64,000 nucleotides of DNA. Origin: Ilumatobacteraceae bacterium. GTDB taxonomy: Bacteria; Actinomycetota; Acidimicrobiia; Acidimicrobiales; Ilumatobacteraceae. The notes beneath the pieces were generated by a model that saw only the letters and a list, made by a program, of their open reading frames with translations, did not search any database and was not told the DNA's origin. Shown piece by piece: positions 6,548-38,494 of this stretch (the stretch's first letter is position 1; the number at the start of each line of letters is the position of its first letter). The stretch lies in contig JAHEKY010000004.1 of assembly GCA_024644465.1 (NCBI GenBank), forward strand, positions 1-64,000, in the 5' to 3' direction. The translations under genes were made by a program, and so were the position numbers.

Positions 6548-7633
6548 ATGACGACGGCCGAACTGATCACCCGAGCGCCCAAGGCACTCCTGCACGACCA
6601 CCTCGACGGCGGGTTGCGGCCGGCAACGGTCGTCGAGCTGGCGCAGGAGTTCGGCTATGACGACCTCCCCACGACCGACCCGGACGAACTGTCGAAGTGG
6701 TTCAACCGTGGCGCCAAGCGCAATGACCTCGTGCTCTACCTGGAGACGTTCGCCCACACCGTCGGCGTGATGCAGCATCGCGACGCGATCGAGCGCGTTG
6801 CGTTCGAGTGCGCCCAGGACCTCGCCGCCGACGGAGTCGTGTACGCCGAGGTGCGGTTCGCGCCGGAATTGCACATCGAGGCCGGTCTGACGCTCGACGA
6901 CGTCGTCGTCGCGGTGCTCGAGGGATTCCGGCGCGGCTCGGCCGGGACCGACCTCACGATCTACGCGCTCTGCTCGGCGATGCGTCAAGCGGCGCGCAGC
7001 CTCGAGATCGCGGAAGTCGCGGTCCGTCATCGCGATGCCGGCGTCGTCGGTTTCGACATCGCCGGACCGGAGGCAGGCTTCCCGCCGACGCGCCACCTCG
7101 ACGCGTTCCAGTACATCAAGCGCGAGAACTTCCACTCGACGATCCACGCCGGTGAGGCCTTCGGGCCGCCGTCGATCTGGGAGGCGGTCCAGTTCTGCGG
7201 TGCCGAACGACTCGGTCACGGTGTCCGCCTCGTCGACGACATCGACGTCGGCCCCGACGGCGACGCGACACTCGGCCAGCTGGCGAACTACGTACGCGAC
7301 GGCCGGATCCCGTTGGAGATCTGTCCGACGTCGAACGTCAACACCGGCGTCGTCGGGTCGATCGCCGAGCACCCGATCGGGCTGCTCCGACGGCTGCAGT
7401 TCCGCGTCACGGTCAACACCGACAACCGGTTGATGAGCGACACGACGATGAGCAACGAGATGATCCAACTCGCCGAGGCGTTCGGCTGGGGGCTGAGTGA
7501 CTTCCAGTGGCTGACGGTGAACGCGATGAAATCCGCGTTCGCGCCGTTTCCCGAGCGGCTCAAGTTGATCAACGGCATCATCAAGCCGAGGTACGCGATG
7601 CTGCAGGCCGAGCAGACGCTCGGGGTCGGCTGA
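6548..7633 (+). CDS. add: Adenosine deaminase
   Basis: Hydrolyses adenosine and deoxyadenosine to inosine and deoxyinosine in purine salvage; 361 aa, within the family's usual length. The N-terminal zinc motif reads [10 protein letters not shown] (His-x-His), HAGEAFG carries the next ligand region, ERLGHGVRL the catalytic His, CPTSNVNTG follows, and VNTDNR holds the distal Asp. The stop overlaps the upp start by one base, so the two are coupled. Together with the importer at 1-3642 it fits use of external nucleosides. The HDHLDGG form is the actinobacterial variant of the more usual HxHLDG. Confidence 0.95.
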
Positions 7634-8268
7634 TGGGCGTCGACACCGTCATCGTCGACCACCCGCTGGTGACCGACGCCCTCGCCCGGATCCGGGACGT
7701 GACGACGCCGAACGCGCTCTTCCGCCAGAACCTGGAACGGATCGGCACGCTGCTGATCGCCGAGGCGACGCTGACCCTGCCGACGGTCGACGGTGAGGTC
7801 GAGACGCCGCTCACGACGGCCGCGGTGCGGCGCCTCGCGGTGCAGCCGGTGATCGTGCCCATCCTGCGCGCCGGTCTCGGCTTCCTCGCGCCGGCGCAGC
7901 ACCTGCTGCCGGCCGCCGACATCGGCTTCATCGGCATCGCCCGCAACGAGCAGACACACGAACCCGAGCCGTACGTCAACAAGCTGCCCGAGTCGTTCCA
8001 GGGTCGGCCGGTGATCGTCGTCGACCCGATGCTGGCGACCGGTGGGTCGCTGATCCACACCTTGGAGCTGCTGATCGGCGCCGGCGCACAACAGCCCATC
8101 ACGGTCGTCGTCGCGCTCGCAGCCCCGGAGGGCATCGCCGCCGTCGAGGAGTCGGGCATCGACATCACGCTGTTCACGGCGGCCGTCGACGACCACCTCA
8201 ACGACAACGCCTACATCGTGCCGGGCCTCGGCGATGCCGGCGACCGTCAGTTCGGCGCCCCCGCCTGA
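7633..8268 (+). CDS. upp: Uracil phosphoribosyltransferase
   Basis: Converts uracil and PRPP to UMP (pyrimidine salvage), 211 aa. Family landmarks are the N-terminal region, the PILRAGLGF loop, the PRPP-binding VVDPMLATGGS near 135, and the C-terminal uracil-binding signature AYIVPGLGDAGDR. I chose the ATG at 7633 overlapping the add stop (TGATG); longer in-frame sequence upstream is antisense-like shadow of add. A REP-like palindrome follows 5 nt after the stop and probably ends the transcript. Confidence 0.96.
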   Translation: MGVDTVIVDHPLVTDALARIRDVTTPNALFRQNLERIGTLLIAEATLTLPTVDGEVETPLTTAAVRRLAVQPVIVPILRAGLGFLAPAQHLLPAADIGFIGIARNEQTHEPEPYVNKLPESFQGRPVIVVDPMLATGGSLIHTLELLIGAGAQQPITVVVALAAPEGIAAVEESGIDITLFTAAVDDHLNDNAYIVPGLGDAGDRQFGAPA

Positions 8269-8273
8269 CCCGT

Positions 8274-8298
8274 CAAAGTTGTGTCAGACACAACTTTG
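8274..8298. repeat. REP-like palindrome, copy 1 (inverted orientation)
   Basis: Perfect 12-bp arms (CAAAGTTGTGTC / GACACAACTTTG) around a single central A. The same core recurs at 9137-9171 and 38462-38494 with a central T, so this copy is in the opposite orientation. It starts 5 nt after the upp stop and 30 nt before the RAYT gene. Likely a REP element recognised by the adjacent RAYT, and a plausible transcription terminator. Confidence 0.8.
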
Positions 8299-8328
8299 CT
8301 GTGACACCGAGCCCGCAGACTCCGACGG

Positions 8329-9156
8329 ATGGGGAGATCACCACGTCCCGACGAGCCCGGCGGGCGCTTCCACGTGATGAATCGCGGGGTTGCCAAGCAG
8401 GCGACGTTTCGCTGCACGGAGGACCGAGTCGAGTTCGGGCGACTGTTGGCCCTGGGCCACGAGCGGTTTGGGGTCACGACGCACTCGTACTGCCTCATGG
8501 ACAACCACTTCCACCTGGTCCTTCACTGCCCGGACGGACACTTGTCCGAGTCCATGCAGCAGCTCGGTTCCGTGTTCACGCGCCACGCGAACGAGCGGAG
8601 CGGGCGCGACGGTCCGCTCTTCCGCGGCCGGTTTCGCTCGATCCGCATCACCGACGAGCACCAGCTGTTGAACACGGTCCGCTACGTACACCGCAATGCG
8701 CTCGACATTCCGGGGGTCTGCGCGGTCGATCGCTATCGGTGGTCGAGTCACCGGACGTACCTCGGACATCGGCGCGCACCCACGTGGATGGACACCGGGC
8801 CCGTGCTCGACATGTTCGGCCAGGATCGGCAGGCATTCGACGACTTCGTCTCGAACGATCGGTCGGCGCTGTGGCCGGTCGGCCCTGATGCGCTGCCCGA
8901 GATCGTGGAACTGGTCGTTGCCGAGCGACACGCCGACGTCGGCCCCGGCGTGCGACGCACGCTGCTGCTGCTCGTCCTCGAGCGGCTCTCCGACGGCGAT
9001 CGGTGCCGAGTCATTCGCATGCTCGGCTTCGAAGACGAGGTCCCGCTCCAACGTGCGCTTCGTCGGGCGGCACGACGCGCCGCAGCTGAGCCGTGGCTCG
9101 CCGACGCCGTCGAGCACGTGACACGTCTCGCTGGTGGACGACAAAGTTGTGTCTGA
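8329..9156 (+). CDS. REP-associated tyrosine transposase (RAYT), Y1/HUH family
   Basis: Single-strand DNA endonuclease-like protein of the IS200/Y1 superfamily, 275 aa. The HUH metal motif is HFH (60-62, in MDNHFHLVLH) and the candidate nucleophile is Tyr119 in VRYVHRNAL; GPLFRGRFRS (95-104) is also typical of RAYTs. The C-terminal ~130 residues are an Arg-rich extension. Palindromes lie on both sides, and the last codons (RQSCV) and stop are inside copy 2, so gene and element are physically fused. No second transposase or classical IS ends are seen. Known RAYTs are single-copy, vertically maintained genes tied to REP spread; that role is inferred here. Confidence 0.88.
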   Translation: MGRSPRPDEPGGRFHVMNRGVAKQATFRCTEDRVEFGRLLALGHERFGVTTHSYCLMDNHFHLVLHCPDGHLSESMQQLGSVFTRHANERSGRDGPLFRGRFRSIRITDEHQLLNTVRYVHRNALDIPGVCAVDRYRWSSHRTYLGHRRAPTWMDTGPVLDMFGQDRQAFDDFVSNDRSALWPVGPDALPEIVELVVAERHADVGPGVRRTLLLLVLERLSDGDRCRVIRMLGFEDEVPLQRALRRAARRAAAEPWLADAVEHVTRLAGGRQSCV

Positions 9157-9171
9157 CACAACTTTGTCGTC
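9137..9171. repeat. REP-like palindrome, copy 2 (longest)
   Basis: Perfect 17-bp arms (9137-9153 and 9155-9171) around a central T at 9154. The RAYT stop codon (9154-9156) lies at the centre, and the pgm stop on the other strand is 3 nt away, so the hairpin can terminate both converging genes. A 33-bp stretch (9139-9171) is identical to copy 3 at 38462-38494. Confidence 0.85.
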
Positions 9172-9174
9172 GGG

Positions 9175-10827
9175 CTACGACTCGCGGGAGGCGGCAAGGG
9201 CCTGGAGCAGGCGGTCGAGCTCGGCGGGGTCGAGGTCGACCGCTTCGCCGTACAACTTGACCTTGGGCTCGGTGCCGCTCGGGCGGACCTGCAAGCGCAC
9301 GCCATCGGTGAGCACCAACCGGACGAGGCTCGCCTCGGGGTACGACGACACCGACTCGACCTGCCGGCCGCCGATGTCCGCGGGCGGATCGGCTTCGATC
9401 TCGGCGACCCATGTCGCGCCGACCGACGGCGGAATCCTGACCGACAGCTCGGCGGTCGTGTAGCGCCCGAAGCGGGCGGCGATCGCGTCGAGGCGTTCCT
9501 GCAGCGTCACACCCTCGGAAGCTGCGAGCGCCGCGATTTCCGCCATCAGCACCGCCGCCGTGATGCCGTCCTTGTCGAGCGGTCGATCAGCGACGAGGTA
9601 GCCGAGCGCCTGCTCGTAGCCGAACACGAATCGCTGACCGACCGCGGCGCGTTCGGTCGCGATCTTGCCGATCCACTTGAACCCCGTGAACGTCTCCTCG
9701 CTGTGGACGCCGTGCGCCGCCGCCATCTTGGCGAGCAACGACGACGACACGAGCGTCGTGACGACGAGGCGGTCGTCGCCGGTGGTGTTGCCGAGGATGT
9801 GGTCGGCCATCAGCCAGCCGATCTCGTCACCCGAGAGCCGCCGCCACCCGCCGTCGGGCGTCGGGATCGCCGCCCCGAGCCGATCGGCGTCCGGGTCGTT
9901 GGCGAGTGCCACGGCGGCATCGGCGGCGGCTGCGGTTTCGAGGAGCAGGTCCATCGCCCCCGGTTCCTCGGGATTGGGGAACGACACCGTCGGAAACGTC
10001 CCGTCCGGCTCCTGCTGGGCTTCGACGACCGTCGGCGGATCGAACCCGGCGGCGATGAAGGCCCGCGCGATCGTTTCGCCCCCGACACCGTGCATTGCCG
10101 TGTACGCGACACGCACGCCGGCGACCTCGGGCCGGAGCCGCACGAGCGGTGCCGCCGCGACGTACGCCTCGGACCACGAGTCGTCGAGCCAGGTGATCAG
10201 GTGGTCGTCCTCCGCGGCCACCGGAACCCTGAGCGGGTCGAACTGGCCGATTCGCTCGGAGATCTCCGTGTCGACCGGGCTGACGATCTGCGAACCGGTC
10301 TCCAGGAACACCTTGTACCCGTTGTCGGCGGGCGGGTTGTGCGAGGCGGTGACGACGACGCCGGCGGCGGCTGCGAGCCCTGAGATCGACCACGCGAGCA
10401 CCGGCGTCGGCTGGACCCCGGGGTGGAGCATCGTCTTGATGCCCATCGCGGCCAGCACCCGAGCCGTGTCGTACGCGAAGAGATCGCTCTTGCGGCGGGC
10501 GTCGTGAGCGATCACGACGCCCCGAGTCGCCGCGTCGGGAACCGAGTCGAGCAACCACCGGCCGAGTCCGGCCGCCGCCTGACGTACGACGAGGCGATTC
10601 ATCCGCATCGAACCGGCCCCGACCGCGGCACGGAGACCGGCCGTACCGAACTGCAGACGTCCGGCGAAGCGCGCCGTGAGCTCCTCCACGGCGCCCGCCT
10701 CACCGTCCACGGCAGCGTCGATCAAGGCGACCAACTCGGCGCGGATGTCGTCGTCCGGCTCGGCGTCGCGCCACGCTGTGGCCGTTGCGAGCACATCGGT
10801 CTCCGTGGGGCCGCTGGTCTCAGTCAT
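9175..10827 (-). CDS. Phosphohexomutase/phosphopentomutase (PgcA-like)
   Basis: Alpha-D-phosphohexomutase superfamily enzyme, 550 aa, moving phosphate between C1 and C6 (or C5 for pentoses) through a phosphoserine. Landmarks in order: FGTAGLRAAVGAG near 60, the phosphoserine loop TASHNPPADNGYKV near 160, the Mg2+ loop NDPDADRLG near 310, and the phosphate-binding SGTEPKVKLYGE near the C-terminus. The length and FGTAGLR motif resemble the PgcA/PGM2 branch, which includes glucose-1,6-bisphosphate-using phosphoglucomutases and phosphopentomutases. Neighbouring nucleoside salvage genes favour a pentose role, the glucan genes a glucose role. Its start overlaps the end of the kinase gene by 8 nt, so they form one operon. 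Confidence 0.88.
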   Translation of the reverse strand: MTETSGPTETDVLATATAWRDAEPDDDIRAELVALIDAAVDGEAGAVEELTARFAGRLQFGTAGLRAAVGAGSMRMNRLVVRQAAAGLGRWLLDSVPDAATRGVVIAHDARRKSDLFAYDTARVLAAMGIKTMLHPGVQPTPVLAWSISGLAAAAGVVVTASHNPPADNGYKVFLETGSQIVSPVDTEISERIGQFDPLRVPVAAEDDHLITWLDDSWSEAYVAAAPLVRLRPEVAGVRVAYTAMHGVGGETIARAFIAAGFDPPTVVEAQQEPDGTFPTVSFPNPEEPGAMDLLLETAAAADAAVALANDPDADRLGAAIPTPDGGWRRLSGDEIGWLMADHILGNTTGDDRLVVTTLVSSSLLAKMAAAHGVHSEETFTGFKWIGKIATERAAVGQRFVFGYEQALGYLVADRPLDKDGITAAVLMAEIAALAASEGVTLQERLDAIAARFGRYTTAELSVRIPPSVGATWVAEIEADPPADIGGRQVESVSSYPEASLVRLVLTDGVRLQVRPSGTEPKVKLYGEAVDLDPAELDRLLQALAASRES

Positions 10828-38461: not shown

Positions 38462-38494
38462 CGACAAAGTTGTGTCTGACACAACTTTGTCGTC
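38462..38494. repeat. REP-like palindrome, copy 3
   Basis: Thirty-three bases identical to 9139-9171, with 15-bp perfect arms (38462-38476 / 38478-38492) around T38477. It touches the echA stop codon (38493-38495 on the minus strand). It lies about 29 kb from the RAYT gene. Confidence 0.85.

Follow-up and report, generated by a model that had tools for sequence, protein, structure and literature searches.

An Ilumatobacteraceae bacterium carries a RAYT gene, coding for a Y1/HUH transposase, between two palindromes, which raises the question of whether gene and palindromes form a module with further copies elsewhere. The stretch analyzed, of 64,000 nucleotides (the window), is contig C125 in a draft genome (G000) of 195 contigs and 3.37 Mb, 83% complete. 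Its relevant features are collected in Table 1.

Table 1. Features of the transposase locus and the third palindrome of the window
Feature	Position	Strand	Description
upp-like gene (uracil phosphoribosyltransferase), upstream neighbor	7633..8268	+	ORF, coding model, name read from translation
Upstream palindrome CAAAGTTGTGTC-A-GACACAACTTTG	8274..8298	.	Arms 12/12, central A
RAYT/TIRYT gene, 275 aa	8329..9156	+	HUH and Y1 core, then C-terminal helical domain
HUH motif codons H60-F61-H62	8506..8514	+	H60 and H62 invariant in alignment
Catalytic Tyr119 codon	8683..8685	+	Invariant in alignment
Helical bundle at the C terminus (residues 186-267), perhaps a diverged helix-turn-helix	8884..9129	+	AlphaFold secondary structure
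Downstream palindrome GACGACAAAGTTGTGTC-T-GACACAACTTTGTCGTC	9137..9171	.	Arms 17/17, central T; codes for the last residues and the stop
Stop codon TGA	9154..9156	+	Its T (9154) is the center of the downstream palindrome
Phosphoglucomutase/phosphomannomutase-like gene, convergent downstream neighbor	9175..10827	-	ORF, coding model, name read from translation
Third window copy, center T	38462..38492	.	In the gap between convergent genes

The original prediction described a RAYT gene bracketed by palindromes, the second of which has perfect 17-bp arms, encodes the last residues of the protein and is centered on its stop codon. All of these elements were recovered: both palindromes are perfect, they surround an intact HUH/Tyr open reading frame, and the central T of the downstream one is the first base of the TGA codon. 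The "opposite orientation" also ascribed to them is restricted to the central base, A versus T, because the two palindromes share a 25-nt stretch that differs at its center alone. Three core sites were seen in the window versus 0.2 expected; the palindromes are not due to chance. Folding as single-stranded DNA gave -10.3 kcal/mol for the upstream palindrome (z about -4.7) and -18.1 kcal/mol for the downstream one (z about -8.3).

The protein has the HUH motif and catalytic Tyr of HUH Y1 transposases in a Y1_Tnp fold. H60, H62 and Tyr119, on which the prediction of such an enzyme rested, are invariant among 32 aligned homologues, as are R101, N123 and S139. Pfam Y1_Tnp (PF01797) matched with an E value of 5.3e-5 (23.8 bits, cutoff 23), and the NCBIfam equivalog REP_Tyr_transpos (NF047646) gave 50.7 bits, below its cutoff of 80. 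A PDB search with the protein sequence yielded zero matches. The top PDB structural match of the AlphaFold model (pLDDT 90.3) was 4ER8, the E. coli RAYT in complex with a REP hairpin (E=1.1e-6, TM-score 0.77 by target length), followed by the ISDra2 and IS608 transposases.

The alignment of the 32 homologues displays the motifs NHFH, FRG, YVHRN and SS, with NA after the catalytic Tyr (YVHRNA), where RAYT subclass 2.1 has NP. Motifs and long C-terminal extension place the protein in this subclass ("TIRYT"), as judged by comparison with Table 1 of PMC6006769 rather than with that paper's own profiles. Subclass 2.1 is the one associated with terminal inverted repeats (PMC3733652, PMC6006769) and corresponds to Bertels group 1 as cited in PMC6006769. 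Like TIRYTs, the window protein has NH[YF]H, F(Q/R), Y[IV]H-N and SS together with the extension. Where TIRYTs have a C-terminal helix-turn-helix (Bac_DnaA_C, HTH_23/28), it shows a helical bundle in the model and no Pfam helix-turn-helix match; its relatives give Sigma70_r4_2, or DnaA_C/HTH_28 below threshold.

The gene is single-copy in the draft genome, and its palindrome is not. The core GTTGTGTC-W-GACACAAC, of 17 bp, has 70 exact sites in G000, and 93 sites when at most 2 mismatches are allowed, so the family extends beyond the bracketing copies; the reversed core, used as a control, has 0. Perfect arms of the exact copies range from 8 to 19 nt. Among 69 of these copies, the conserved unit stops about 14 nt from the center, and position 13 carries compensatory pairs (A-T 28, T-A 23), being complementary in 78% of the copies versus 41% after shuffling (z 6.6). 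Covariation is weaker at positions 14-16, and none is significant beyond. In the same 69 copies no conserved bases of the GT[AG]G foot type were found at the palindrome edge, and none are conserved beyond it. Rough gene calls, made with a simple codon-usage caller that was trained on the window, put 68 of the 75 copies classified in intergenic DNA, which makes up about 9% of the window. Their gaps are tandem for 35 copies, convergent for 28 and divergent for 5; convergent gaps are over-used (28/68 copies versus 12/56 gaps, p=3e-4). The center commonly falls 15-20 nt from a stop codon.

Other repeats were also seen. Some G000 copies, for example C122:9393, C172:2070 and C65:7763, form a subfamily whose stem has one internal mismatch, C/T or A/G, at position 9. 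A second hairpin family, about GAGTCGTAGTCGTGCCAGGCACGGCGACGACTC, is present in G001, the sister species, and in G000 (L250:5043, L248:2489, L267:7987, L008:277). A third palindrome, ACATCTGGTGCCAGGCACCAGATGT, is found in G000, with a relative in G001 (L026:2872, L090:3573, L260:11065), and is similar to the repeat that accompanies the RAYT of G016 at L035.

We searched 80 genomes, the window's own and 79 relatives, and detected a RAYT homologue in 16. In a named collection, the nearest homologue is that of Ilumatobacter sp. SS_bin_52, and such relatives place the window's genome in the genus Ilumatobacter. Palindromes also adjoin close homologues. The gene is bracketed by its own inverted palindromes GTCAAAGTTGTGCC-W-GGCACAACTTTGAC in G001, by CGGACGGTTTGTCTC-W-GAGACAAACCGTCCG in G006, by CCGAGATAGTGCC-W-GGCACTATCTCGG in G016 and by TCACGTTGTGTC-W-GACACAACGTGA in Ilumatobacter MO_167.B34, and GGTGTC-W-GACACC cores bracket a second gene of G006 and the gene of G007. 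The predicted actinobacterial setting of a compact transposase-palindrome module is supported, among Ilumatobacter relatives.

Copies were counted for selected cores, that of G016, for example, being left out. The G000 core has 70 copies in G000, 2 in G001 and 0 in the remaining 78 of the 80 genomes; the G001 core has 91 in G001 and 2 in G000; the G006 core has 51 in G006 and 0 in 21 other genomes. A further core is present 33 times in G006 and 16 times in G007, each with a RAYT bracketed by that core. Outside genomes with the matching gene, the four cores counted are hardly ever multicopy. In G080, the RAYT is 50% identical and the inner core, the same as in G000, has 39 copies. A single-contig genome of another genus, G045 (loci L097, L100), holds 22 copies of the G001-type AGTTGTGCC-W-GGCACAACT; no RAYT was detected in it, by searches the second of which ran without a positive control, and this counts against the module. 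Bracketing, copy number and cognate specificity are otherwise plain in the genomes themselves.

The Acidimicrobiia homologues form one group of the RAYT tree (26 rows, SH-aLRT 95). A single origin of palindromic repeats was not supported on this tree, which needs at least 5 changes, though the starred branches force only 2. Distant homologues (Nitrospira, Betaproteobacteria and others) carry GGGGTCA-type repeats like those described for TIRYTs (PMC3733652), and GGGGWSAS-type repeats were met in relatives such as L037, L040, L115, L120 and L139. The GTCA of the distant repeats coincides with the center of the Ilumatobacteraceae palindromes, which may be self-complementary versions of TIRYT repeats. 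At L162:2750-3740, from an uncultured member of the Acidimicrobiales, several GGGGTC-W-GACCCC palindromes stand in a row upstream of the RAYT gene, and one is centered on its stop codon.

A stop lies at the palindrome center because the core GTC-TGA-C falls in the right frame, as it does for GTC-T-GAC cores in the window gene, L111, L049 and L162. Genes with a GCC-T-GGC core have no stop at the center and reading continues; the G001 protein runs through its palindrome (VKVVPGTTLT...). As the central T shows no preference for the gene strand (42 versus 38), a stop codon inside the palindrome is not a general rule.

The central base also sets the arrangement of copies. Among close homologues, the upstream palindrome has a central A and the downstream one a central T wherever both are readable. 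Close pairs (<=120 bp) in the sequence examined comprise 8 A-to-T, 4 A-A, 2 T-T and 0 T-to-A; from position lists come three more A-to-T pairs for G006 (2121758/2121787, 2227909/2227966, 4272732/4272773) and two for G080 (C182, C195). Combined, A-to-T outnumbers T-to-A 13:0, and therefore the short units share the polarity of the gene's own bracket. G000 itself has five A-to-T pairs and no T-to-A pair. Most of its copies are single rather than paired, which counts against the module. A replication-strand bias is expected for this enzyme class; it was weak in G006 (p=0.049, uncorrected, with the origin taken as the start of the record), and none was visible in G045, which likewise weighs against the module.

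The sister species offered a view of the family over time. Its RAYT gene occupies the same locus, where 2.7 kb align contiguously at 79% identity; the proteins are 68% identical, and the upp-like and phosphoglucomutase-like neighbors are conserved within the genus. G016 has upp and the mutase gene adjacent, separated by about 11-40 bases, with no RAYT between them. In G003 (L205), the short upp-pgm gap holds a single palindrome of another family, GGTCACACTGTGCCTGACACAGTGTGACC, where G000 and G001 have RAYT.

We then compared palindrome sites between the sisters, in a set biased by the choice of G001 stretches around G001's own palindromes. For thirteen G000 palindromes, both flanks aligned and the corresponding G001 gap also contained a palindrome, often at the identical nucleotide. 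In G001, 10 of these are GCC-W-GGC (switched), 2 are GTC-W-GAC (unswitched) and 1 is mixed, GCC-G-GAC. At the ten switched sites, eight dispersed and two beside the gene, GTGTC/GACAC in G000 stands against GTGCC/GGCAC in G001; the core is otherwise unaltered, and identity of the flanks is mostly 80-95%. The central A/T is flipped at C11:7387 and C113:12289, and one further site, C176:13417, has no palindrome in G001. A 524-kb sample of G001 taken without such bias allowed a verdict at six loci. A GCC-type palindrome is present at two (degenerate at one of them), and the family is absent from four, among them the cleanly empty C102:66579 and a gap in which a GGGGTCAG-type element takes the place of a G000 pair. 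Elsewhere, the core type is GTGTC in G080 and GTGCC in G045. Polarity, empty sites and shared sites with switched cores are likewise directly visible.

Genes beside palindromes differ between the sisters as well. At L251:5690-6500 (G001 C86), a dioxygenase-like gene (PhyH-type by reading) lies between A and T palindromes; the counterpart in G000, C37:20753, has a single palindrome only, which suggests gain or loss of the bracketed gene. At L006:750-2030 (G000 C20), a transporter gene (MFS-like by reading) stands beside a palindrome, carries a degenerate GTCAGACACGTGTCTGACAC at its far edge and is missing in G001 (L242).

Paired substitutions at ten sites are implausible as independent mutations, and therefore conversion or re-insertion is needed. 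The switched and empty sites argue that the palindromes are mobile and that existing sites are re-written or receive re-insertions; the agent is presumably the cognate enzyme, the activity of which we infer. It is quite conceivable, and we propose it tentatively, that the transposase homogenizes dispersed palindromes in place by a homing-like conversion. If so, a changed enzyme specificity would lead dozens of inherited copies to switch both arms together, and conversion would contribute as much as new insertion to maintaining the family. It is rather unlikely that the shared positions with different cores represent independent insertions into the same hot spots, a view that contests this one step and not the module as such. 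Some gaps are reused, as shown by the other-family palindrome in the upp-pgm gap of G003, by the GGGGTCAG-type element that faces a G000 pair, and by the two copies at C10:13708, one in each species, about 20 bp apart within the gap. However, several shared copies lie at the identical nucleotide with matching edges (C21, C27, C113, C172), few coincidences are expected when roughly 90 copies are spread over thousands of gene ends, and one G001 copy is half-switched (C2:7439).

The palindromes might also be RNA hairpins under selection, acting as bidirectional terminators or 3'-end stabilizers, with a RAYT gene that merely adjoins two of them. Their proximity to stops, their frequency in convergent gaps and their strong hairpins fit this proposal, and REPs are generally thought to act as RNA too (PMC3733652). 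We consider it improbable nonetheless: the sequence varies by species, following the local RAYT, pairs show A-to-T polarity, the sister lacks palindromes at 4 of 6 unbiased loci, and no U-tract follows the stem. It is very improbable that the locus is an ordinary insertion sequence of the IS200/IS605 type, with subterminal hairpins and miniature derivatives, for despite the same catalytic family and the ISDra2 and IS608 structural matches, the genome has one gene copy, at the same locus as in the sister, with a Y-HRN motif rather than Y---Q and with subclass 2.1 motifs.

Thus, the locus is probably a REPtron-like module of the TIRYT kind, in which one HUH/Tyr transposase is associated with its own dispersed palindromes. 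The enzyme, at the same locus in both sisters, would recognize its palindrome as a single-stranded hairpin. The polarity of the palindrome would come from its loop, CAG on one strand and CTG on the other. The A-to-T units, namely, the gene itself and REPIN-like pairs of 30-60 bp, look like the processed form. We infer that this protein cuts and rejoins hairpins while the DNA is single-stranded; they would spread to gene ends, where they may do little harm. By putative re-writing or re-insertion at existing copies, the family would track the preferred core of the enzyme. No target-site rule was found, which counts against this reading.

The prediction of a compact RAYT-REP module holds as far as transposase and palindromes are concerned, and not for the Gammaproteobacterial GTAG type, given the lack of a GT[AG]G foot and the subclass 2.1 motifs. 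Canonical GTAG REPtrons (RAYT groups 2 and 3; Nunvar 2010, PMC2817692; Corneloup 2021, PMC8266576) similarly combine a single-copy HUH gene with flanking inverted palindromes and with dispersed, intergenic palindromes that change together with the gene, whereas here there is no GTAG foot, the central base carries polarity, and the protein is of another subclass with a long C-terminal domain. As in REPINs (Bertels and Rainey 2011, PMC3116915), short inverted pairs occur, here always of one polarity, but they are a minority and single palindromes dominate. IS200/IS605 elements differ by Y---Q in place of YVHRNA and by the one transposase copy here. Protein motifs are shared with TIRtrons, in which inverted repeats also bracket the gene and can overlap its 3' end. 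GGGGWSAS in the terminal inverted repeats is common to some, not all, described TIRYTs (PMC3733652); here, in contrast, a near-perfect palindrome has the core GTGTC-W-GACAC, which shares only GTCAG with that consensus; it is found 70-93 times, and there are cognate versions throughout the Ilumatobacteraceae.

Inverted palindromes around RAYTs, their joint change with the gene and REP-supplied stop codons are already published, orthologous rayt loci with changed but still palindromic REPs having been reported in 2010 (Nunvar 2010, PMC2817692). So are moderately repeated, sometimes self-complementary TIR families: some were found repeated in the genome and a few self-complementary (Di Nocera 2013, PMC3733652). 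A 2018 survey listed no REP-like sequences for subclass 2.1 and, in Actinobacteridae, only subclass 1.1 (Quentin 2018, PMC6006769). We found no publication on Ilumatobacter palindromes in the openly accessible literature. As far as its papers show, a high-copy, cognate-specific palindrome family for subclass 2.1 in Acidimicrobiia is new, as are a polarity set by the central base and the switch of core at sites common to sister species.

These observations extend multicopy cognate palindromes to a RAYT subclass reported without any, and their range to the Acidimicrobiia. The gene locus and many positions of palindromes are common to the two sisters, which differ by one clean change of the core in both arms, and it is therefore possible to test directly whether a RAYT re-writes existing copies. 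The pair is a good natural system for how palindromes spread and stay identical.
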